The notes: generated from the letters alone by a model not told the origin. DNA of 57,748 nt from Gammaproteobacteria bacterium (GCA_021773245.1 JAJFKK010000125.1:1-57748), one strand, 5' to 3'. Shown: positions 5,766 through 47,876, counted from the stretch's first letter. Made by a program: numbers and translations.

Positions 5766-6302
5766 TTAACTGGCCGGAAAACTGCTTGCAAAACGGTTAA
5801 TCCATTCTTCGGTTAGTCTTTCTTTACTCAAAAAAGGGCCTTCTTTATATCGTTTGTCATTTAAGTAGAGTTCGATATGACAAATTTGTTCAACAATTCG
5901 TAGCTTTGGAGCGTCTTCCGGATGCAGTAACCATAGTCCTATTTCATAATAGTTATCAGATTCTTTTACCATGACAACTTTCCCCATGAACTGATGAAAT
6001 TCTTTACGAGTTGGTATGGTCACTTCTATTATGCTGCCCGGTTTTTGATATTCTTTGGAAGAGAAGGTCAAACCGATATTAGAATTTTGATTCATTTCGA
6101 TTTTTGAGCTTTGCCAAAATCGTAAACGTCTAAATTTAAGTGGAAATCGTTCAGGATGTTTAATAAATCCCTGTAGTAAATCACTCTCGAAATCGGCAGG
6201 CTGACCGGTAAAATCAGGTGGAATAGTTGCCCCAATAGCTGAATAGCGTTGAGTATGACTTAGACTAACATTGGCTAACATTATGATCTCCCAATTAATC
6301 AA
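5766..6302 (-). CDS. PilZ-like domain protein
   Basis: KFRRLRFWQSSKIEMNQNSNIGLTFSS..PGSIIEVTIP...FMGKVVMVKESDNYYEIGLWL resembles a PilZ beta-barrel; short probable start at MLANVS. Confidence 0.55.
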   Translation of the reverse strand: MINWEIIMLANVSLSHTQRYSAIGATIPPDFTGQPADFESDLLQGFIKHPERFPLKFRRLRFWQSSKIEMNQNSNIGLTFSSKEYQKPGSIIEVTIPTRKEFHQFMGKVVMVKESDNYYEIGLWLLHPEDAPKLRIVEQICHIELYLNDKRYKEGPFLSKERLTEEWINRFASSFPAS

Positions 6303-6611
6303 GTACTTATGAGTTGCAATTTTAGAACATTATTTAATAAAATCAAGTAAAAATATATAAATATCATGTATTTATAGTTTTTATCTAAAAAATATATTAG
6401 ATATAGATATCGTAATATTAATATAAGTCATTGATATATATGTATATTATGATATTTTATCAGGCTTAATTCATGTTTAGGTCTAGCGCTATTCCTGTAT
6501 AATAAAAAAACGAAATTAGTCTTTTATAAGCGATGTGTGAGTTACTCGGATCACTTTCAAAGTCGTTTTTTATTATTCAAAATTATGGAGCAGTTAAATG
6601 AGGTGTTGTAA

Positions 6612-7121
6612 ATGAAAGCAATGGTAGGTTTGATTTTTGCCATCCTGATTATTTTTGGTTTTAGACTATTCTGGCCGTCATCCGAACCTGAAATAAACGA
6701 TGCCGCTCAAAACGAAGTATTTAATGATAAAAAAAATGAACAAGTTCAAACAGCGATTAATGCAAGTGATTCATTAACGTCTGAATTAGGCATGCCTAGT
6801 GATGAAGAAAAAACGAAGTTAATGACTATGGAGTATGAAGCTCTTGAGCAAGCACGAAAAAAGTTAAAACGACATGTTTCTCAATTAAAACATGAAATGT
6901 GGGGACTTAAATTTCCACCGGAGATAGCTAAAGAGATAAGTACGGCAGTGTTGAGTGCATCCAAGTTGTTAAAGAATCCGCATATGTTAGGTGCTTTTTC
7001 AAATGTTGAAGGAATAAAAGATGAAGTTGCAAAAGTTAACTTTGCAGAAAAGTCGTTAGAAAAGGTAGATGAAATAATTAAAGCGAACAAAGACGAGGAG
7101 AGCGGGGTTAATTCAGGTTAA
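6612..7121 (+). CDS. Hypothetical membrane-anchored protein
   Basis: Single N-terminal TM (MVGLIFAILIIFGFRLFW) followed by a charged helical region. Confidence 0.6.
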   Translation: MKAMVGLIFAILIIFGFRLFWPSSEPEINDAAQNEVFNDKKNEQVQTAINASDSLTSELGMPSDEEKTKLMTMEYEALEQARKKLKRHVSQLKHEMWGLKFPPEIAKEISTAVLSASKLLKNPHMLGAFSNVEGIKDEVAKVNFAEKSLEKVDEIIKANKDEESGVNSG

Positions 7122-8392
7122 ATCAACTCAACAATGCAATGCTCTGCATTTTTAGAAACATGAGTTATTTTTACCTTAGAAATTTGATTTTCAAATTCTG
7201 TTGCAGATTCATTATTTAATTCAACACGCATAAAATTTTCTGTGTAACCCACCCAGGCATTATTATTTTTTGTTTCCCACAATACAGCATGTGTTGTTCC
7301 AATATTATTAGTCAATTCTGTTTTTCGCATTGAATTACTAAGGGCATGAAGTTGTTTGCTTCGTTGTTTTTTTATGGCTGAATCAACTTGATTACTCAAT
7401 GTTGCTGCTTTTGTTCCATCACGTTTTGAATATGTAAAAATATGAATATGTGAAAATGAAATTTCTTTTATGAAGTTGATAGATTCTTGCCATTCTTCTT
7501 CTGTTTCACCAGGGAATCCAACAATAATATCAGTTGTAAGGTTGAAGTTAGGTATCTCATTTCTTGCTTGTTGAACTAATTTTTTAAAATCATTTGTTTT
7601 GCAACGTCGTGCCATTCGTTTCAATACAGAATCGCTGCCGCTTTGTAGTGGAAGATGCATATGTGGCATTAGTCGAGCATCGGAAAATAATGAAAAAAAG
7701 TTTTCAGGTAAATCCCACGGTTCTAATGAAGCAAGGCGTATTCTGGGAATATCTGTATTAGATAATATTGATTTTATAAGCTTATAAAGACACGAATCAA
7801 TTTCGCTTCCATACCCACCAAGATGAACGCCGGTTAATACAATTTCTTGAATGCCTTGTTGTTGAAATAGATTGATATCATTAATGATATCGGCTTCCGT
7901 TCTGCTGCGTTCTTCACCTCTTGCAACAGTTACAATACAAAATGTGCATCGATAACGACAGCCATCTTGTACTTTTATAAAAGCTCTGTTTCGACCACGT
8001 TTAAAAATACTCGCTTCGCCTGGTTCTGTTGATATTGCAGGCATAGATTCGAAATTTAATTCATTTAAAGTTATATCAACGAGTTGATCTTTTTGCTGAT
8101 TATTTATAAGGAGATCAATACCAGGGATGTCTTGTTTTATTTTTTCATCAAGACTAGCATAACAACCACTAACGACAAGCTTAGCCTTATTATTGTTGCG
8201 ATGTATACGTCTTATAATTTGTCGTGATTTTTTTACAGCTTCTTGAGTTACAGCACAAGTGTTAACGACTAATAGATCGGCATTTTCTACTGAATCAGTT
8301 AAATGGTGTCCTTTTGCTTGAAAGCCTTCTGCCCATGACTCAAGTTCAGCCTCATTTAATCGGCAGCCTAGGGTTTTTAGATGAATTTGCAT
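7118..8392 (-). CDS. mtaB: MiaB-like tRNA methylthiotransferase (MtaB type)
   Basis: LKTLGCRLNEAE...VNTCAVT...VSGCYA plus radical-SAM CRYRCTFCIV and C-terminal TRAM-like region. Confidence 0.88.
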   Translation of the reverse strand: MQIHLKTLGCRLNEAELESWAEGFQAKGHHLTDSVENADLLVVNTCAVTQEAVKKSRQIIRRIHRNNNKAKLVVSGCYASLDEKIKQDIPGIDLLINNQQKDQLVDITLNELNFESMPAISTEPGEASIFKRGRNRAFIKVQDGCRYRCTFCIVTVARGEERSRTEADIINDINLFQQQGIQEIVLTGVHLGGYGSEIDSCLYKLIKSILSNTDIPRIRLASLEPWDLPENFFSLFSDARLMPHMHLPLQSGSDSVLKRMARRCKTNDFKKLVQQARNEIPNFNLTTDIIVGFPGETEEEWQESINFIKEISFSHIHIFTYSKRDGTKAATLSNQVDSAIKKQRSKQLHALSNSMRKTELTNNIGTTHAVLWETKNNNAWVGYTENFMRVELNNESATEFENQISKVKITHVSKNAEHCIVELI

Positions 8393-8421
8393 GGCGCGAA
8401 CTATATCAACGGAGTGAAAAT

Positions 8422-8784
8422 CTAAAGCTTTGCGCGCTCTAATATCATTGCGGGCATCTCTTCAGACATGCCAATGCAACTTGATACTTTAAATTTACAA
8501 TCAGGATGTTTTTCAGTTGCGGTTTCAATAATTGCAGGAATGTCGCGCTCGACATGGATACCGGAATTTAGAAAGTAGGGTAATACAGTAATTTCAGTCA
8601 TACCTTTTTCTACCGTTTTATCGATACAATAAAGTAAATTAGGTTCCGCTATTTCGAGATAGGCGTAATCAACGACGCTATAGTCAGACTCAGCTAGTGT
8701 TTTGACTTTCTCAGCTAGCTTTTTAATTTCAAGGTTAGATTCTTTTCTACGGCTACCATGAGCAAGAATGATGAGAGCATTCAT
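8422..8784 (-). CDS. CbiX/sirohydrochlorin chelatase-family protein
   Basis: ALIILAHGSRRKESN..YAYLEIAEPNL..LPYFLNSGIHVERDIP. Confidence 0.85.
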   Translation of the reverse strand: MNALIILAHGSRRKESNLEIKKLAEKVKTLAESDYSVVDYAYLEIAEPNLLYCIDKTVEKGMTEITVLPYFLNSGIHVERDIPAIIETATEKHPDCKFKVSSCIGMSEEMPAMILERAKL

Positions 8785-8787
8785 TTG

Positions 8788-9468
8788 CTATGACCTACTA
8801 TTTAAGTCATTTAGTAATGACGAGTCAATTTTGCCACCAAGTCTTTTCGATTGCTCTACCATCTCTTTCGACCTTGTAATGTTTTTTTGAAGAAAATATG
8901 ATTTTGCCCATGAGTGATAGATATAGGCTAATAATCTGTTATTAGAAGTTTGTAATGCTGTTTCATATATATCATTTGACATCTCAAATAGCTTTTCTTT
9001 TTCATCTTTATCTTTCAATACTGCGCATTGACTTGTTGTGAGCGCATAATCTGCAAGAAAACCATTTTCTTTTAATCCTTTTTCATTAGCTAACTTAAAC
9101 ATCTTATAGGCGTCACAAGATTTATTTTCTTGATTCATAAGTAATCCAAAGCCAAGGTAAGAATATGCGTTTTCCGGATTTAATAACCATGCCTGATTGA
9201 AACGCTCCATTGAATGTTTAAATTCATTTTTAGAATAATGATCAAACGCACGTTCAACATATCCTTCAGATGCATGTTCACGAGTACCGAAAGTACGAGT
9301 TGCTTTTGCTATTAATTCATTATCTATAGTTTGTAATTCAGGATTATTGCTTCTGTCTATTCCCTCATACATAGGACGTTCTTGTTTGATTTGTTCAGCA
9401 AAGGGAGATATAGAAAGTAAAGTGAAAGTTATAAAAACAATATTTCTTAAAAAATTGCTAATCTTCAT
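8788..9468 (-). CDS. TPR-repeat exported protein
   Basis: Signal peptide, then HYSKNEFKHSMERFNQAWLLNPENAYSYLGFGLL TPR-like motifs. Confidence 0.7.
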   Translation of the reverse strand: MKISNFLRNIVFITFTLLSISPFAEQIKQERPMYEGIDRSNNPELQTIDNELIAKATRTFGTREHASEGYVERAFDHYSKNEFKHSMERFNQAWLLNPENAYSYLGFGLLMNQENKSCDAYKMFKLANEKGLKENGFLADYALTTSQCAVLKDKDEKEKLFEMSNDIYETALQTSNNRLLAYIYHSWAKSYFLQKNITRSKEMVEQSKRLGGKIDSSLLNDLNSRS

Positions 9469-9556
9469 TATGCTGCCTTATGGTAATAATGTTTGTTTGC
9501 ATTCATTTGGGTATATTATACGCAACTAGAAAAATAAATTTACAAGATTATCTGAT

Positions 9557-11488
9557 ATGACAAAAAAACAAAAAGCAGCCTTTGGTTCTTGGAAGTCAAA
9601 TATCACCACAGATTTAATGCTCGCTGATAGCGTAGGCTTAGGTGAGATTAGTGTTTTTCAAGATGATGTTTACTGGATTGAAATGCGTCCTCAGGAAAAA
9701 GGTCGTTACGTCATTGTAAAACAAACCCCTGATGGGCAGCAGATGGATGCTATCCCTTCTGAATTTAGTGCACGGACACGTGTGCATGAATACGGCGGTG
9801 GATCTTATTTGATGACAGAAAAAGGTTTGGTCTTTATTAATTTTAGTGATCAAGCTTTGTATCTAGTAGACACAAATAATGATTGTATCAAACTTACGGA
9901 CAATGCCACTTGTCGTTATGCAGATTTAGAGTATGACAAAAAACGTCAACGACTAATCTGCGTGAGAGAAGATCATTCGAATCAAAATGCTGAAGCAATA
10001 AATACTATTGTCGCTATTTCTTTGTCTAGATCAGAGGACGAAGTTGTCTTAGTCAAAGGCGCTGATTTTTATTCTAATCCGAGGCTTAGTAATGATGATG
10101 AACAACTATGTTGGATTAGTTGGCAGCATCCGAATATGCCTTGGGATAATACAAGTCTTACACTTGCCAATATTAAGGATAAAGGTGAACTAGAAGTTCC
10201 TAACCAAATTGCTGGTGGTAATAATGAAAATGTAGCGGTTTGTCAGCCATTATGGTCGCCGGATAGCATACTTTATTTTATTTCAGATCAAAGTAATTGG
10301 TGGAATTTATATCGTGTCATTAATAATAAAGTCGAATGTGTCTTTGAGATGGAAGCGGAGTTTGCTGTTCCACAGTGGTCATTCCGTGAATGTAATTATG
10401 ATTTCGTAAATGAAAATACGATTCTAGCTAACTATCGCCAGAATGGTTTGGCTTATCTTTCGTTAATTAATATTTATGAAAAAAAAATTGATACTTTGGA
10501 ACTGCCTTATACTGATTTTGAGTCCATAGTGACAAATGGCAATAAGTCATGGTTTCTTGCCGCATCGCCAATTCAATTTCCTTCAATAATGGAATATAAC
10601 ATTGAGAAAAAGAGAACGAGTGTACTTCGACGAGCAAATAATTTAACGCTGGATGAAGAAAATATTTCTATTGGTGAGTCTTTAAGTTTTCCTGTTGACG
10701 AAGAAAATAATGCGTATGCGTTTTTCTATAGACCTAAAAATGAATTGTTCATGGGATTAGATAATCAAAAACCACCATTAATTGTTATGAGTCATGGTGG
10801 ACCAACAGGCGAATCACATAATGGAATAAAAATGGTAGCTCAGTTTTTTACTAGTCGTGGTTTTGCAGTATTAGATGTTAATTATGGTGGGAGTAGTGGT
10901 CATGGTCGATCTTATCGACAACGATTAAATAAGCAATGGGGCGTTGTAGATGTTAATGATTGCAGCAAAGCTGCGTTATATGTAGCTGAGCAAGGTTGGG
11001 TTGATAGAGACCGTTTAGCCATACGTGGTGGTAGTGCAGGGGGCTTCACAACATTAGCAGCTTTAGCATTTACAGATGTTTTTAAAGCGGGAGCAAGTCA
11101 TTATGGTGTGAGTGACTTGGAAGCGTTGGCAAAAGAGACGCATAAATTTGAATCTCGTTATCTCGATTCTTTAATCGGAGCATATCCAGAGGAACAAGAC
11201 TTATATAAAGAACGTTCACCAGTACATAATGTGGATCAACTATCTTGCCCCGTTATTTTCTTTCAAGGACTCGAAGATAAAATCGTTTTGCCCAATCAGG
11301 CAGAGATGATGGTTGATGCGTTAAAAGAAAAAGGAATCCCTGTTGCCTATATTGCTTATGAAGGAGAACAGCACGGATTTCGACAAGCAAAAAATATTAA
11401 ACGTACACTTGAAGCAGAACTCTATTTTTATTCAACGATATTTAACTTTGAATGTTTTGAAGAGATCGAGCCGATAACTTTTCTGTAA
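9557..11488 (+). CDS. S9-family peptidase (prolyl oligopeptidase/acylaminoacyl peptidase-like)
   Basis: Beta-propeller N-terminus and catalytic GGSAGGF, HGGPTGE, EGEQHGFR motifs. Confidence 0.9.
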   Translation: MTKKQKAAFGSWKSNITTDLMLADSVGLGEISVFQDDVYWIEMRPQEKGRYVIVKQTPDGQQMDAIPSEFSARTRVHEYGGGSYLMTEKGLVFINFSDQALYLVDTNNDCIKLTDNATCRYADLEYDKKRQRLICVREDHSNQNAEAINTIVAISLSRSEDEVVLVKGADFYSNPRLSNDDEQLCWISWQHPNMPWDNTSLTLANIKDKGELEVPNQIAGGNNENVAVCQPLWSPDSILYFISDQSNWWNLYRVINNKVECVFEMEAEFAVPQWSFRECNYDFVNENTILANYRQNGLAYLSLINIYEKKIDTLELPYTDFESIVTNGNKSWFLAASPIQFPSIMEYNIEKKRTSVLRRANNLTLDEENISIGESLSFPVDEENNAYAFFYRPKNELFMGLDNQKPPLIVMSHGGPTGESHNGIKMVAQFFTSRGFAVLDVNYGGSSGHGRSYRQRLNKQWGVVDVNDCSKAALYVAEQGWVDRDRLAIRGGSAGGFTTLAALAFTDVFKAGASHYGVSDLEALAKETHKFESRYLDSLIGAYPEEQDLYKERSPVHNVDQLSCPVIFFQGLEDKIVLPNQAEMMVDALKEKGIPVAYIAYEGEQHGFRQAKNIKRTLEAELYFYSTIFNFECFEEIEPITFL

Positions 11489-11580: not shown

Positions 11581-12603
11581 TCATCCCAAATGACTTATAA
11601 CCGCTGCCGTATACTCTTTTGTATTTGCAGTTCCTTTTAAATCTCCGGTACGTGTTTCAGGTTTTTCTAAAGCTTTTTTAATTGCATCACGTAGACGATC
11701 TCCCATTGGTTTTTCATCTATGTGATCTAACATCATTGCTGCTGCAAGCAATAATGCGGTTGGGTTGGCTATACCTTTACCTGCAATATCGGGTGCTGTT
11801 CCATGCACGGCCTCAAAGATTGATGCGTCTTTTCCTATATTACCTCCAGGTGCGAGTCCTAAACCGCCAATCAATCCAGCAATTTCATCGGAAAGGATAT
11901 CTCCAAACATATTTGTTGTTAGAATCATATCGAATTGTTGCGGGTTGGTAACCAGTTGCATCGCTGTGTTATCGACGATGCGATCTTCAATGATCAATTT
12001 TCCTTTATATTTTTCACCTACTTGTAATGCGGTTTCAAGAAATAGACCAGTTAGTTTTTTTAGTATATTTGCTTTATGAACAATAGTGACTTTTTTTCGA
12101 TTATTCTTAATTGCGTAATCAAAGGTATATTCGGCAATACGACGACATCCCGCACGTGTAATAATTCCTGAAGCTTCAGCGACGGCCTTAGGATCGTCAT
12201 CAATCGGAATATAATGTTCTACACCGACATACAAGCCTTCTGTGTTCTCACGGATTAAGACCAAATCTATATTGTCGTATTGACGACGATTATGTAGATA
12301 GGAAATAGCAGGACGGACATTTGCATAAAGTTTAAATTCTTCTCGCAAGCGAACGTTTGCAGAACGAAAACCTTCTCCTATTGGCGTTTCTAAGGGAGCT
12401 TTTAAAGCAAGTTTGGTTTGGTGGATATCATCAATCATTGCTTGAGGTAATGCGTCACCTTCTTTTTCATAAGCAGACATGCCTGCTTTGAATCGATGCC
12501 ATTCAAATTTTGCACCGAGTGCTTCAAGAATTTCTACTGTTGCATCAAGTATTTCTGGGCCAATACCGTCGCCTTCTATTAATGTTGCTGGTGTAGTTTT
12601 AAT
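11581..12603 (-). CDS. NAD-type isocitrate dehydrogenase (isocitrate/isopropylmalate dehydrogenase family), apparent ATT start
   Basis: ORF track starts at an internal Met (12480), but the frame upstream encodes the conserved IKTTPATLIEGDGIGPEILDATVEILEALGAKFEWHRFKAG with SD gggagag before ATT at 12603-12601; also IRENTEGLY, NMFGDILSDE, HGTAPDIAGKGIANP. Confidence 0.88.
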   Translation of the reverse strand: MKTTPATLIEGDGIGPEILDATVEILEALGAKFEWHRFKAGMSAYEKEGDALPQAMIDDIHQTKLALKAPLETPIGEGFRSANVRLREEFKLYANVRPAISYLHNRRQYDNIDLVLIRENTEGLYVGVEHYIPIDDDPKAVAEASGIITRAGCRRIAEYTFDYAIKNNRKKVTIVHKANILKKLTGLFLETALQVGEKYKGKLIIEDRIVDNTAMQLVTNPQQFDMILTTNMFGDILSDEIAGLIGGLGLAPGGNIGKDASIFEAVHGTAPDIAGKGIANPTALLLAAAMMLDHIDEKPMGDRLRDAIKKALEKPETRTGDLKGTANTKEYTAAVISHLG

Positions 12604-12628
12604 AACAACTCTCCCTTTGTGTTCTTTT

Positions 12629-12649
12629 GAATCAGAAATGCTCTGATTC
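12629..12649. other. Inverted repeat with 8-bp perfect arms between prc stop and the isocitrate dehydrogenase start
   Basis: gaatcaga-aatgc-tctgattc. Confidence 0.7.
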
Positions 12650-42664: not shown

Positions 42665-43390
42665 ATGAAAATATTAGAAAAAATAAAATCTTCCTCTTTT
42701 TTTAAAAATAACAAAGATGCAATGCCTGTTGCAGATATTCCTTCACTATCAATGAGTGAACGGGAAGATAAAATATATGAAAAGGAGCAATTGTCATTAC
42801 AAAAGCTGTATGAACGATGGTCCTGCAAAGAAAAATGGTTGCTACATGATGAAGGTATTCCATTGCTTTTTGCAATCAATCCAAATGACAGAGAAAATTT
42901 GGAAGATGAGGCTTTAAATAAAATAGAAAATCTTTGGGAGCATGCGCAAGATTGTGTGAAGAAAAAGCTATTGCCAGTTATTAATATAGAGAGCTCCAAA
43001 GCAGAATGGGAAGTAAGACCGATAGATCTTTATTCTTGGGGAACAGTCAGCCGAATAAATATGCCTGATGAATTTAGTATGTTAATGACATTTGTTGCAC
43101 AAACAATAAAACCTATACAAACAAATTCAAATGCTAATCTAGGTGATAGCGCTGAAGACATGTTGTATCAAAAACATAGAGAGATTGTTTTAGGTGCAGC
43201 GACATCACTTTTAGTTAATGCGGCTGACTTATGTAAAAATAAAAAGGGGAAAATTGTTAGTAATAAAATAGCAAAGAATATTATTGAAAATGAAAGTCAA
43301 TGGTTTGGTGATGATAGACCTTTGTTGACTGAGTCAACGATGACAGATTTGATAAATGAATATTTAAAATTAACTCGGCCTACAGTTTGA
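42665..43390 (+). CDS. Conserved-looking hypothetical protein
   Basis: Full-length ORF following the DUF455 gene; no recognised domain. Confidence 0.6.
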   Translation: MKILEKIKSSSFFKNNKDAMPVADIPSLSMSEREDKIYEKEQLSLQKLYERWSCKEKWLLHDEGIPLLFAINPNDRENLEDEALNKIENLWEHAQDCVKKKLLPVINIESSKAEWEVRPIDLYSWGTVSRINMPDEFSMLMTFVAQTIKPIQTNSNANLGDSAEDMLYQKHREIVLGAATSLLVNAADLCKNKKGKIVSNKIAKNIIENESQWFGDDRPLLTESTMTDLINEYLKLTRPTV

Positions 43391-43406: not shown

Positions 43407-44915
43407 TTAGTGAGTAGGTGTTCTTGTTTTTTGCATAACAGTTGATTCTTCAAGTGAGTAATCAGATGCAAGTTGGGTAAAATGTAGAAAAAAATCACCT
43501 ATTTCAAGAATATCTCCTTCATGTAATTCTGCTTTGCCGACCTTTTCGTTATTAATATAAACACCATTCATTGAATTCATATCTATGATATCGAAAGTGC
43601 CATCACTATTCCTGTGAATTTCGGCATGACGCCTTGATATAGAAGTGTCATCCAAACTTAATTCATTATCTTTACTTCTGCCTATTCGACAGATAGTCCT
43701 AGTGATAGGGTATCGTTTATCAGAACCATCATTGGATATTAAATATGCATACGGTCTGTATTCATTTTTTGAATTGTTAGTTTGTTCTGGTTTTCTCCAT
43801 AGGAGATAGAGCGTGATTAATATGAAAATTATAATAATAATGAAGGCAGCAGGAAGACCATACCAGATCCATAAATTGATAGGTTGAATAGGATTCTGTT
43901 TTGTTATTATTTGTATCGGAGCATTATTTACAGCAGGTTTTATTAAAGGCGATGAAATAATATTTTCTTCATTCATTATAGGCTTATTTACAGGCTCTTT
44001 AGTGAAATTCTTTTTTATTTTTATATTAATAGGAACTTGAATACGTTTTACACCGGCGTTGCTAGAAAAAGATAATGTTACAGAATTTACTGGTTTTTCA
44101 CTTTGATATAGTTCGTTCAAAGGGATGGAAAAAGAGCCTCCATTATCAATATTGCGGAACATTTTTTTAAGGTCATTGATAGCTAAATTATAAGTCGAAT
44201 CTGTTTCTAAATAAGAACCACCTGTTTCTTCACTTAATCTTCTTAATGTTTGTAAGGCAACGGATAAGGAAACAGAACGGGGATAGCCAATAGAATTTAT
44301 TACTATACTTTGTTTTCTGGCCATTTTAATGATGTCGGAATGAAAGTAAGCTTTATCCTCAGCTTGACCATCAGAAAGCAAAACAATTACTTTTCTTTTC
44401 GCTTCAATTGAATTGAATTGCTCCATCGCTTTCAGGAGGTTTCGATATAACTCAGTGGTTTTCCCTGCTGCTTTTATATTATCTAGTGATTTTAATAATA
44501 AAAATGATGATGTGCCAATTGAAGACTGCATGTTAAGTGACTTATCAAATGAGGCGAGTCCGGCTTTATGATGAGGTTTTAAAGTCGAGAGTATTTCCTT
44601 TATGTGAGCTTTATTTTTTTCAATTACATTTTGTCTAGCCGGGTCACTCGTGTCGATTAAAAATAAAATTGCGGTTGTGTCATTAGTTTCCGGATAGGCA
44701 TAATTATCGGTAATTTCTAACTTTATTTTATTTGAATTCGCCTCGATTGAAGTTACATTATCTTGAGTTAATGTTCTGTATTCACAATGAAGCATTGCTT
44801 CATCTTGTTGGCAGCTAACATCGAAGTTACCTGTTAAAACACTCCATGCAAACAAAGGAATTGAATATAAAATCAAACATAAACAAATCAAGAATGATTT
44901 TTCTTTCAAAAACAT
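43407..44915 (-). CDS. VWA domain - TM - FHA domain protein
   Basis: AILFLIDTSDP..VIVLLSDGQAED (VWA), TM WYGLPAAFIIIIIFILITLYLLW, C-terminal CRIGRSKDNELSLDDTSISRRHAEIHRNSDGTFDIIDMNSMNGVYINNEKV (FHA). Confidence 0.88.
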   Translation of the reverse strand: MFLKEKSFLICLCLILYSIPLFAWSVLTGNFDVSCQQDEAMLHCEYRTLTQDNVTSIEANSNKIKLEITDNYAYPETNDTTAILFLIDTSDPARQNVIEKNKAHIKEILSTLKPHHKAGLASFDKSLNMQSSIGTSSFLLLKSLDNIKAAGKTTELYRNLLKAMEQFNSIEAKRKVIVLLSDGQAEDKAYFHSDIIKMARKQSIVINSIGYPRSVSLSVALQTLRRLSEETGGSYLETDSTYNLAINDLKKMFRNIDNGGSFSIPLNELYQSEKPVNSVTLSFSSNAGVKRIQVPINIKIKKNFTKEPVNKPIMNEENIISSPLIKPAVNNAPIQIITKQNPIQPINLWIWYGLPAAFIIIIIFILITLYLLWRKPEQTNNSKNEYRPYAYLISNDGSDKRYPITRTICRIGRSKDNELSLDDTSISRRHAEIHRNSDGTFDIIDMNSMNGVYINNEKVGKAELHEGDILEIGDFFLHFTQLASDYSLEESTVMQKTRTPTH

Positions 44916-44925
44916 AAGTCAAAAT

Positions 44926-45444
44926 TTAGCCTTTGTCAGGGAACAAGGGATCGGGTAAATCGTAAAATTCGATTTCAACTGATTTCACACCACGGCGCTG
45001 TTCATTAATTTCAACCATCGTTTTGTCATCAGGTTCTTTAAATTCACCCATCTGAGCAATATCTTTATCTAATTTAGCTTTCACATTAATTATTTTTTCA
45101 TGTAACTCATTCGAGTATTGTAGTTCATATGCTCTAGGTTTGGATGAATCGGACATATTTTTAATTTCAGTTAGCCAAAGAAAAATAGAACCGTTTTTAC
45201 CCATTTCTTTATCCGGTTGAGAAACATGTGCAGCAATTAGACGGAATTGCGCAGGAGGATTTTGAGATGTGGGCCAACCGAGCAAAGGTGGAAAAGAATA
45301 ATAACTTACAAGGTAAAAAATCGACGTGATAATAATTGTTGAGGCTTTAACAGGCCAAGACCATTTTGAATAAAGATTAATACTGAGAAGTAGTAGTCCA
45401 AGTATAATATAAGCGGCAATAATGCCCGTTATGCCCAATATCAC
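44926..45444 (-). CDS. Small membrane protein of unknown function
   Basis: Two N-terminal TM segments, then a soluble domain; same strand as the VWA-FHA and ExbB/D-like genes. Confidence 0.65.
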   Translation of the reverse strand: MILGITGIIAAYIILGLLLLSINLYSKWSWPVKASTIIITSIFYLVSYYSFPPLLGWPTSQNPPAQFRLIAAHVSQPDKEMGKNGSIFLWLTEIKNMSDSSKPRAYELQYSNELHEKIINVKAKLDKDIAQMGEFKEPDDKTMVEINEQRRGVKSVEIEFYDLPDPLFPDKG

Positions 45445-45464
45445 AATAATTTCTCCATTGTTAT

Positions 45465-46058
45465 TTAGCCAAGAATCACAAGAGATTTTGGTAGAAAATT
45501 GATTCCAAAAATTTCGCCTTCACGTCCAATGGAAAAACGAATAACTGTTTTCTCGTCGCCTTTTTTTTCCATTGTAACCGTTCCGTAATACACTATTTCT
45601 AATTTTGGATTAACCTTTGCAAGCCTGACCTTCACGTCAACAGGTTTACCTGTTTCAGAAGCGTAATAGTGTAGATTAACTACGTATTCACCTTTCACAA
45701 CACCTCTTAACGTAACAACTTCTTGGTTAAGCGGATTTTGAATTTCCTCGCCGTTAATCGTGATAGTGTCATTTACCAAACCGCGATCATCACGATCAAG
45801 ATGTAACAAACCAGCTTCGGGTGTTCTAAACCAGACGATTTGTCCCTCTGGATCTTCAACATAGACATCAACATCATCTGGGCTATCATCTTCCCAGGTA
45901 ATGGTCAGAATATATTCTGCTTTAGGGTCAATAATTCCTGTCTTTGCTTCAGGGTTCATGAACATGATGGCGACCAAAAATAAAAAGGTAAAACCTAAAA
46001 GCGCATTGAACAATAAATCTGTGAAAGGGTCTGAGCGGAGTCGATCTTTAACTCGCAT
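45465..46058 (-). CDS. ExbD/MotB-like stator-type TM protein with a C-terminal beta domain (DDVDVYVEDPEGQIVWF)
   Basis: DPFTDLLFNALLGFTFLFLVAIMF contains an Asp at the start of the single TM, as in ExbD/MotB; located directly after an ExbB/MotA-like gene. Confidence 0.65.
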   Translation of the reverse strand: MRVKDRLRSDPFTDLLFNALLGFTFLFLVAIMFMNPEAKTGIIDPKAEYILTITWEDDSPDDVDVYVEDPEGQIVWFRTPEAGLLHLDRDDRGLVNDTITINGEEIQNPLNQEVVTLRGVVKGEYVVNLHYYASETGKPVDVKVRLAKVNPKLEIVYYGTVTMEKKGDEKTVIRFSIGREGEIFGINFLPKSLVILG

Positions 46059-46060
46059 TG

Positions 46061-46804
46061 TTAAACACCATTCAGTTTTGGAATTACATGTATTTGAGTT
46101 AAATGTCGCGTTAGTTCAATGAGTTCGTCAACATGTCTATCTATCATGTGATATTGCATTGCAGACAAAATACTGCAAATTAGTCCAGCAAGTGTTGTAT
46201 ACAATGCAGTACCCATCCCGTTACTCATGTGTTGCAGGATTTTCTGCATATTACTGACATCAAAGTCAGCAATATTAGCAACAGAACCAAGCATGAAGAT
46301 AAACCCGATAATGGTGCCAAGTAGACCGAGTTTCAACATCATGTCAGAAACAAACCAACCAATTTCTTGAGGTCCTTTTAAACGCGACTCATAAACATCA
46401 ATTAGATCTGACGGTGAGGTTGCTTCTTCAGAACTCGTGGTATTCATATTTCTATAATATAGGTCGCCGATATAATCAGTCATAAAACAATCCGGCAGCT
46501 TTTTGTCAGAACTAATAAAAATATCTTCATCATCAATTTTTAAGTCGAGCTTATCTTCATTCTTTATCATGCCGTCTACTTTTCTTGATAGATTAGTTTG
46601 TAAAGAAATAATGTAAGTTAGTCTGGCACAATGCAATGTGACCAGTAGGTAGATTAATGCGATGATGGATGAGATGCGGCTTTTATCGATGCTGAACAGT
46701 AAAGAAAAAACACCTTCGTTCCATGCAACGATGAGAGAAAAAGCGATAAGGCCGGTTAATATTAGCCATCTGAGTAATAGGCTGTGTTCTGGTTGTTCCT
46801 TCAT
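46061..46804 (-). CDS. MotA/TolQ/ExbB-family proton channel protein
   Basis: KLGLLGTIIGFIFMLGSVA...MSNGMGTALYTTLAGLICSI. Confidence 0.85.
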   Translation of the reverse strand: MKEQPEHSLLLRWLILTGLIAFSLIVAWNEGVFSLLFSIDKSRISSIIALIYLLVTLHCARLTYIISLQTNLSRKVDGMIKNEDKLDLKIDDEDIFISSDKKLPDCFMTDYIGDLYYRNMNTTSSEEATSPSDLIDVYESRLKGPQEIGWFVSDMMLKLGLLGTIIGFIFMLGSVANIADFDVSNMQKILQHMSNGMGTALYTTLAGLICSILSAMQYHMIDRHVDELIELTRHLTQIHVIPKLNGV

Positions 46805-46845: not shown

Positions 46846-47319
46846 TTAATTTTGCTCTAGAATAAATGGGTCTTCAGATGCCGTATATTCTACCATTGAA
46901 CGCAATATTTTATTAATATTTTTTGCAGTTTCGTCCATTTGTATGTCACCAGTTTTTTCTGGTAAGAGACGAGTTCCGACGAGGATTTCTCCATCAAGTT
47001 CTGTTGCCGTTAATTTATAGGGACAATAATTAATATAGTGAGGTTCAATCTTTAACATTTCTTCTGCTATCGTAAGATTACAAAATAAAATCACTTCATT
47101 TTGAGGGAACGCAGTATTACCCCGTTTTTGGATAGCCTCGCCAATATGAAGTCGATTAGTAATACGGAAATTATTTTCACTAATGCTGAATTCTGCATCC
47201 TGAATGACATCAATGAATGCTTTTTTTGTGTGTCGTTCGTGAATCTGATTGGATTCTTTTGAGCATGCAGTAAGCAGTATCAATATAACTAAGAAGGGAT
47301 ATATCCTGAGTTTTTTCAT
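46846..47319 (-). CDS. DUF302-like lipoprotein
   Basis: Lipobox LLTACS; HIGEAIQKRG...VILFCNLTIAEEMLKIEPHYINYCPYKLTATELDGEILVGT resembles DUF302. Confidence 0.65.
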   Translation of the reverse strand: MKKLRIYPFLVILILLTACSKESNQIHERHTKKAFIDVIQDAEFSISENNFRITNRLHIGEAIQKRGNTAFPQNEVILFCNLTIAEEMLKIEPHYINYCPYKLTATELDGEILVGTRLLPEKTGDIQMDETAKNINKILRSMVEYTASEDPFILEQN

Positions 47320-47876
47320 TCTTTGATGATGACAGCTGTGCCTACATCGACAAATTTTCTCAAGTCATTTATTTCTGCATTGGTCAGAGCAATACAACCT
47401 TCTGTCCAGTTTATTTCTTCATGGATGGTTAGCTTTTCATCATTTTCTACGCCTAGTCCATGGATGCCGATAAAACCTCCCAGTTCTGTATCTTGAGGCG
47501 GTGCTTCTCGTTTTTTGTAGGCGCTAGCAATACGTTTGAAATCCTTTGCATCAATAGTCTTATTTTTATAGCCATACCAGGCATCAATCAGATTTGGATA
47601 GTCGAGTTGAATGAAATAATGAAAACGACTACTTTCCTTGAATTTTGATATACGATAAACCCCTAAGGGTGTTTTACTGTCTCCCTGGCGACGTTTTGTA
47701 CCTTTACCGCCTTTTCCACTGGCAATATGGAATTTTTTTACAATTTCGCCAGATTTCTCAACAACAAGTTCCTTATTTTTTTTAGAAATTAATATTTGGT
47801 ACTCACTGGCTTGTACCAGTGGGCCTAATAGTAAAAGCAAGAATACCAATAGAAATTGAGTGGACAACTTACGCAT
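47316..47876 (-). CDS. L,D-transpeptidase (YkuD family), exported
   Basis: Signal peptide, KTPLGVYRI, GIHGL and TEGCIAL catalytic motif. Confidence 0.9.
   Translation of the reverse strand: MRKLSTQFLLVFLLLLLGPLVQASEYQILISKKNKELVVEKSGEIVKKFHIASGKGGKGTKRRQGDSKTPLGVYRISKFKESSRFHYFIQLDYPNLIDAWYGYKNKTIDAKDFKRIASAYKKREAPPQDTELGGFIGIHGLGVENDEKLTIHEEINWTEGCIALTNAEINDLRKFVDVGTAVIIKE

Follow-up and report, generated by a model that had tools for sequence, protein, structure and literature searches.

What kind of envelope machine, if any, is encoded by a run of four tightly spaced genes in a gammaproteobacterial genome (GCA_021773245.1), and which of the four genes belong to it? Of the ion-driven motors of the MotA/TolQ/ExbB kind, only a small number are, to our knowledge, understood, and the main difference among them is how the axle acts in the periplasm. 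The earlier note on this DNA, a 57,748-nucleotide stretch (JAJFKK010000125.1:1-57748; the window), had described four same-strand genes with small gaps, and reading of the ORFs in the window confirmed four minus-strand frames at 46804-43407, separated by 2, 20 and 10 bp. These frames and their upstream neighbors were as follows.

46061..46804, minus strand: gene A, 247 aa; channel subunit of the MotA/TolQ/ExbB superfamily (PF01618, 1.3e-10; TM scan; invariant residues)
45465..46058, minus strand: gene B, 197 aa; one N-terminal transmembrane segment (TM) and a predicted periplasmic all-beta domain; signature protein of the set
44926..45444, minus strand: gene C, 172 aa, GTG start; two TMs and a small periplasmic alpha/beta domain
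43407..44915, minus strand: gene D (accessory), 502 aa; signal peptide-VWA-TM-FHA (PF00092, PF00498)
46846..47319, minus strand: DUF302 lipoprotein neighbor (PF03625, 4e-9), adjoining the operon in 30 of 53 loci
47316..47876, minus strand: YkuD L,D-transpeptidase-like neighbor (PF03734, 4e-20), adjoining the operon in 37 of 53 loci

The DUF302 and YkuD genes lay just upstream of gene A on the same strand as A-B-C, and the housekeeping genes accA and tilS were neighbors of the operon in the window's lineage, with synteny kept.

Sequence comparison placed A firmly among the homologues of the MotA/TolQ/ExbB superfamily, as it scored 41.6 bits against the Pfam family MotA_ExbB, which has a curated cut-off of 22.9, and the channel signature that had been read in it, GLLGTIIGF...GMGTALYTTLAGL, was present. 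The TM scan indicated a 2+2 arrangement of four TMs with a cytosolic stretch of approximately 90 residues between TM2 and TM3; TM4 of the window's A scored below threshold, and four TMs were scored in several homologues. Thr203-Thr204, which we take to be the pore-side Thr pair expected from TolQ and ExbB, occurred in all 94 aligned bacterial homologues, and Thr204 in all eight aligned phage copies. The conserved positions of A and B were located as follows.

46193..46198, minus strand: Thr203-Thr204 of A, putative pore-side Thr pair
46017..46019, minus strand: Asp14 of B, in PFTD; candidate ion-carrying residue
45498..45920, minus strand: periplasmic beta domain of B (residues 47-187; AF2), distantly related to DUF2135
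45843..45875, minus strand: DDVDVYVEDPEG, part of the conserved periplasmic site of B; D62 and D64 invariant
45780..45803, minus strand: HLDRDDRG, part of the conserved periplasmic site of B; R89, D90, D91 and G93

Gene B starts with DPFTDLLFNALLGFTFLFL, in which PFTD matched, by eye, the P-x-x-D that opens the ExbD/TolR helix. Because of this correspondence, Asp14 is the candidate ion carrier, presumably at the position of ExbD Asp25 and TolR Asp23. It was Asp in 80 of 97 bacterial loci and in 15 of 15 phage loci, with V or A in its place in the remaining 17 bacterial loci. Asn18 was likewise changed to Lys in 17 loci, and the printed segments showed both changes together. Since the two changes go together, the pore may have been rewired or silenced in those lineages with the periplasmic site kept, and members lacking Asp14 would either not conduct ions or conduct them by different means. 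It is this loss of Asp14 that speaks most strongly against an ion-driven mechanism throughout the family.

An AF2 model of B (pLDDT 79) gave a TM helix at residues 11-34 followed by an all-beta domain with strands at 47-187, so that the earlier description of an Asp-bearing N-terminal TM joined to a beta domain with DDVDVYVEDPEG agreed with the protein. The conserved periplasmic site was firm across the family: D62 and D64 were found in 97 of 97 bacterial and 15 of 15 phage loci, and R89, D90, D91 and G93 in 96 of 96 aligned bacterial and 15 of 15 phage loci. Together with W55, E113 and R118, these were the most constant periplasmic residues of B, shared by all aligned bacterial and phage copies. 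No family of Pfam, NCBIfam or PADLOC matched B. Neither did the Pfam model of DUF2135 (PF09906) match it directly; a profile of the B family aligned with a DUF2135 protein at E 1.9e-8, overlapping that protein's own PF09906 match. The likeness to DUF2135 (YfaP-like) extended over the motifs D-x-D-x-W-V-x-D-P-x-G and G-x-Y-V-V-x-x-H-Y-Y, whereas B, unlike DUF2135, is anchored in the membrane by a pore-type helix and lacks the Pfam match. Foldseek comparison of B with the PDB returned no solved relative at E<=0.001 and only weak beta-sandwich matches, and a sequence profile search of the PDB returned none.

Gene C was likewise without a match to any Pfam, NCBIfam or PADLOC family. Its small periplasmic alpha/beta domain carried an LLGWPT...PRAY motif, and its AF2 model (pLDDT 78) found no solved relative in the PDB by Foldseek at E<=0.001.

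The earlier note had proposed examining co-occurrence of the genes across genomes, and the A-B-C core was not scattered in relatives. In nearly all of approximately 100 loci, from two classes of Pseudomonadota, B was flanked directly by gene A upstream and gene C downstream, with A-B gaps mostly of 2-8 bp. As this order was kept in about 100 further loci, the linkage of A-B-C is far beyond chance, and the real unit is these three genes. The exceptions were L050, with no detectable C, L128, with no detectable A, and the very diverged L076; in L062 the frame called for C overlapped that of B and gene order was unreadable, and L078 was a DUF2135 protein and not a member. A search for B in one genome per GTDB species gave 53 loci. 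The B profile matched 18 of 399 genomes sampled across the phylum, 40 of the 53 genomes of the window's family, 42 of 369 sampled gammaproteobacterial genomes (31 of 271 genera; two of the 42 matches being of DUF2135 type, in long frames), and 50 of 61 genomes of one genus in another class, mostly with genomes of 6-10 Mb. The plasmids searched yielded none.

Gene D did not share this constancy. Its domains matched Pfam VWA (PF00092, 1e-11) and FHA (PF00498, 2e-20), and hydropathy placed a signal peptide at residues 9-27 and a TM at 354-372, with the FHA domain after the TM, in the order that had been claimed for the last gene.

44187..44669, minus strand: VWA domain of gene D, with a variant MIDAS
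43497..43691, minus strand: FHA domain of gene D, with phosphopeptide-site residues

Among the 43 loci testable for gene D, defined as those with at least 2 kb beyond C, it was present in 23, starting 0-72 bp after C, and absent in 20; none was found in the phage operons read. Elsewhere the set stopped at C or ran on into a weakly DUF3108-like lipoprotein (L044, L046). Because it was present in only 23 of the 43 loci, gene D is a lineage accessory of one broad gammaproteobacterial group, outside the core, and we rejected it as a core subunit. It also missed the equivalog cut-off for GltG of the GltG/AglRQS gliding motor (60 versus 650 bits), the match covering the FHA domain only. The possibility that all four genes form one functional unit, a phospho-signaling envelope machine, drew on the close placement of gene D where it is present, on a MIDAS that read DTSDP instead of DxSxS in 25 of 25 copies, on FHA phosphopeptide-site residues (GR, S-x-S-R, H, NG) invariant in the same 25, and on a genome with 18 Ser/Thr kinase and 9 FHA matches. 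The 20 loci and the phage operons lacking gene D weakened it, and we considered it improbable. The proposed link between the envelope and phospho-Thr signaling would thus hold only for part of the gammaproteobacteria and failed as a description of the core. A vWA protein is also encoded with a TolQ-like motor in the vWA force transducers found near tolQR-like motors, where the vWA domain lies C-terminal to a TM that carries an SHLS motif or a pore Asp (PMC12204202). Gene D differs from these in its order of signal peptide, VWA, TM and FHA and in a TM (LWIWYGLPAAFIIIIIFILITLYLLW) with neither the SHLS motif nor a pore Asp, the pore Asp here being supplied by B.

Among 50,697 phage isolate records, 27 matched B (GenBank/RefSeq duplicates counted), all of them Rhizobium or Sinorhizobium phages. 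The genome types comprised Pootjesviridae of approximately 155 kb, RHph_I1_18 of 171 kb, a 68-kb group, and 16-3-like phages of 59-69 kb, and uncultivated viral contigs added further types (L084 and L086, and the marine-looking L108-110 and L167). This occurrence in phages had not been foreseen by the earlier note. In the phage loci read, the genes ran in A-B-C order, in some cases interrupted by a small gene or one for a homing endonuclease. Phage A proteins were mostly 138-178 aa long and lacked most of the cytosolic loop, and several copies still matched PF01618; phage B kept the periplasmic D-x-D...R-D-D core together with the pore Asp in 15 of 15 loci. Bacterial and phage versions were homologous for B (tblastn, 4e-16), A (hhalign, 5e-15) and C (hhalign, 2e-9), and carriage of the set by phages is a firm result. 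The genes were annotated as hypothetical in the isolate records, and PHROGs had families for neither phage A nor phage C and gave partial matches only, for one phage B. A VWA protein 2 kb from the RHph_I1_18 operon was not gene D, as it belonged to an RNA-binding protein family (phrog_850, 4.6e-127).

A trypsin-like protease, p036 in phage 16-3, adjoined the phage set in the 16-3-like phages and related contigs. In L108-110 and L167, the set was paired with an SbmA/BacA family protein (1e-77 in L108, 7e-124 in L167) and stood beside an ORF that we read as SppA/ClpP-like, with a protease PHROG match in L167 only. The association with proteases therefore recurs, and the proteases of the two types are unrelated. 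Endolysins were also found: an endolysin preceded the set in L164 and in the prophage L096, along with a small membrane protein of one shared family; in L084, an endolysin lay 0.9 kb downstream; and in RHph_X2_25 and TM3_3_14B, one lay within about 5 kb. None was seen near the set in the stretches read of Pootjesviridae, N3_19, L108-110 and L167. That the phage set acts on the envelope is a reasonable reading; that it takes part in lysis itself is no more than a lead. Tentatively, tailed phages of several unrelated lineages may carry their own miniature ion-driven membrane motor, often with a periplasmic protease, that would work on the envelope of the host in the course of infection or lysis, with the bacterial operons as full-size relatives; we held this as possible, somewhat short of an even chance.

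The likeness of A and B to established motors made it necessary to consider whether the set is an ordinary TolQR or ExbBD pair with a diverged output domain. Like those systems, it has the PF01618 core, the Thr pair, the A-B gene order and a P-x-x-D at the start of the B helix, PFTD resembling the PFVD/PLVD of ExbD/TolR (compare the ORFs of L001). However, A missed the TolQ and ExbB2 equivalog cut-offs by a wide distance (16.4 versus 221 bits and 19.9 versus 135 bits) and, by the TM scan, has four TMs in place of three, and Pfam found neither an ExbD nor an OmpA-like domain in B, where the DUF2135-related beta domain replaces the ExbD/TolR domain and is joined by the near-constant third gene C. 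The operon has no TonB, TolA, TolB or Pal alongside; tolA, tolB and pal were not found beside it in the window, and the genome separately encodes tolQRA (on another contig than A-B-C), exbBD-type sets and two motAB sets (L003 and L005). With MotAB, the set shares the superfamily core, the 2+2 arrangement of four TMs with a cytosolic loop, and a B protein with one Asp-bearing TM, but the OmpA/peptidoglycan-binding domain is absent from B. In a tree of 33 sequences, the A family stood apart from TolQ, ExbB and MotA at 93/96. Orthology to TolQR, ExbBD or MotAB was rejected from the cut-offs, the domains, the separate genomic copies and the tree, leaving a diverged TolQR or ExbBD a very remote prospect, and the distinction from Ton, Tol and flagellar stators drawn in the earlier note held firmly at this level of comparison. 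The generic ion transporters have been described as a broad class, made up of non-flagellar homologues of MotA and TolQ whose domains vary, and the available part of that source makes no mention of the B domain, protein C or phage members (PMC12505986).

Partial PADLOC matches raised a further alternative, in which the set is a Zorya-like anti-phage defense system and the copies in phages are morons for keeping out competitors. Carriage by phages and a prophage would fit it. Zorya ZorAB shares a PF01618 motor of the non-flagellar type, and the partial PADLOC matches of A that scored best included ZorA models (4e-6). The ZorA2 reference fell on a long branch among the phage members of the A family in the 33-sequence tree, in which a single clade for the A family was not rejected (p-AU 0.35), without strong support, and the placement of ZorA relative to the family was not firm. 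Against this, the best ZorA score of A was 20.7 bits, versus a curated cut-off of 500. B has no OmpA domain, A no long ZorA tail, and ZorC and ZorD were not adjacent among the neighboring ORFs; B, C and gene D gave no OmpA or Zor matches, and no further operon gene was present on that side. A ZorA1 search of 229 genomes returned no matches, its controls likewise being without any, and it speaks neither for nor against Zorya. The context was one of housekeeping genes with synteny kept and not one of defense, the set is near-universal in one genus, unlike a defense island, and large virulent phages carry it too. Zorya identity was therefore rejected on the ZorA cut-off, the missing OmpA domain and the lack of ZorC/ZorD among the neighboring ORFs, and a looser Zorya-like defense role appeared improbable.

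The findings in this study suggested that A, B and C probably form one inner-membrane ion-driven machine of the MotA/TolQ/ExbB kind, most likely a new family of envelope motors within that known kind. In the proposed mechanism, A would form the ring of the ion channel and is most likely a pentamer, and B would be the axle, most likely a dimer (a 5:2 assembly). The single TM helix of B would bring Asp14 to face the Thr pair of A, and in the periplasm the beta domain of B would stand where an ExbD or OmpA domain would be. Ion flow would turn or shift B, so that the beta domain may act through its conserved face (D62, D64, R89, D90, D91, R118) on a partner in the periplasm, the peptidoglycan or the outer membrane, with C as a fixed subunit that could hold, gate or couple this domain. 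The VWA-TM-FHA protein of this gammaproteobacterial lineage may link the machine to cytoplasmic Ser/Thr kinases. The version found in phages of several lineages is a reduced one, in which the membrane core and the beta domain were kept and the cytosolic loop of A was dropped. A different reading is that the set is a sensor or gated scaffold and no motor, with B reporting the periplasmic state through A and ion flow being non-essential. The face of B just named varies less than the pore Asp, a residue that has been lost from some lineages, B is more conserved than A, and one lineage attaches an FHA protein, all of which are consistent with sensing. Yet most bacteria retain both Asp14 and the Thr pair, and every phage copy examined retains the Asp, even where A is reduced to approximately 140 aa; we considered a sensor unlikely, albeit somewhat less so than a Zorya-like defense system.

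A search of the open-license literature found no description of the A-B-C set or of a phage-encoded motor of the MotA/TolQ/ExbB kind, and we know of no such phage motor described. As an ion-driven motor, A-B-C would be a widespread, unnamed member of this kind that differs in its axle domain and has a third subunit in nearly every locus. What is surprising is that phages carry it. Because the laboratory phages 16-3 and RL38J1, as well as cultured isolates such as Methylohalomonas lacus with loci L041 and L044, carry A-B-C, its function is open to direct testing, and the phage sets, with a channel of approximately 140 residues, would mark the minimum with which the machine can work.

The candidate ion-carrying aspartate of B, the single-TM partner of the channel protein, was replaced by valine or alanine at position 14 in loci L065-L075, L050, L127, L129-L131 and L135. 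The replacement was accompanied by a change of Asn18 to lysine; the periplasmic site of B was unaltered. The record of L050 is titled as a Klebsiella pneumoniae MAG; because its B is of this V/A14-K18 type, which otherwise occurs in other gammaproteobacteria, that assignment is probably wrong.

Several genomes of the same genus (G437, G440-G443, G445, G446 and others) carried an extra, diverged copy of B, which in the profile search of the window's family gave an E value of about 1e-93, versus about 1e-112.

Many gammaproteobacterial loci retained two neighbours of the operon (window 46846-47876): one encodes a DUF302 lipoprotein, the other a YkuD protein that partially matches LdtF/DpaA. In L044, L046 and L064 the place of VWA-FHA after C was taken by a gene for a lipoprotein-like product; it was weakly DUF3108-like in L044 and L046, and L046 held several tandem copies. 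In the window, synteny with DUF455, tilS and accA was kept for the following gene:

42665-43390, convergent to and adjoining the operon: 241-aa protein of no known family

Phage and viral sets were adjoined by other genes, and a trypsin-like protease also lay just upstream in phages L090 and L093:

L091 (phage), 7625-8524: trypsin-like protease, just upstream of the set
L096 (prophage), 11988-12632: trypsin-like protease, lipoprotein-like, just upstream
L164, 2981-3688: trypsin-like protease, lipoprotein-like, just upstream
L108 (viral contig), 8657-9682: SbmA/BacA-family transporter adjoining the set (PF05992, 1e-77)
L167 (viral contig), 6010-6975: SbmA/BacA-family transporter adjoining the set (PF05992, 7e-124)

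All isolate phages with the set (L087-L095 and the 27 isolate records, GenBank/RefSeq duplicates counted) had Rhizobium or Sinorhizobium as host, and these phages spanned several unrelated genome types.
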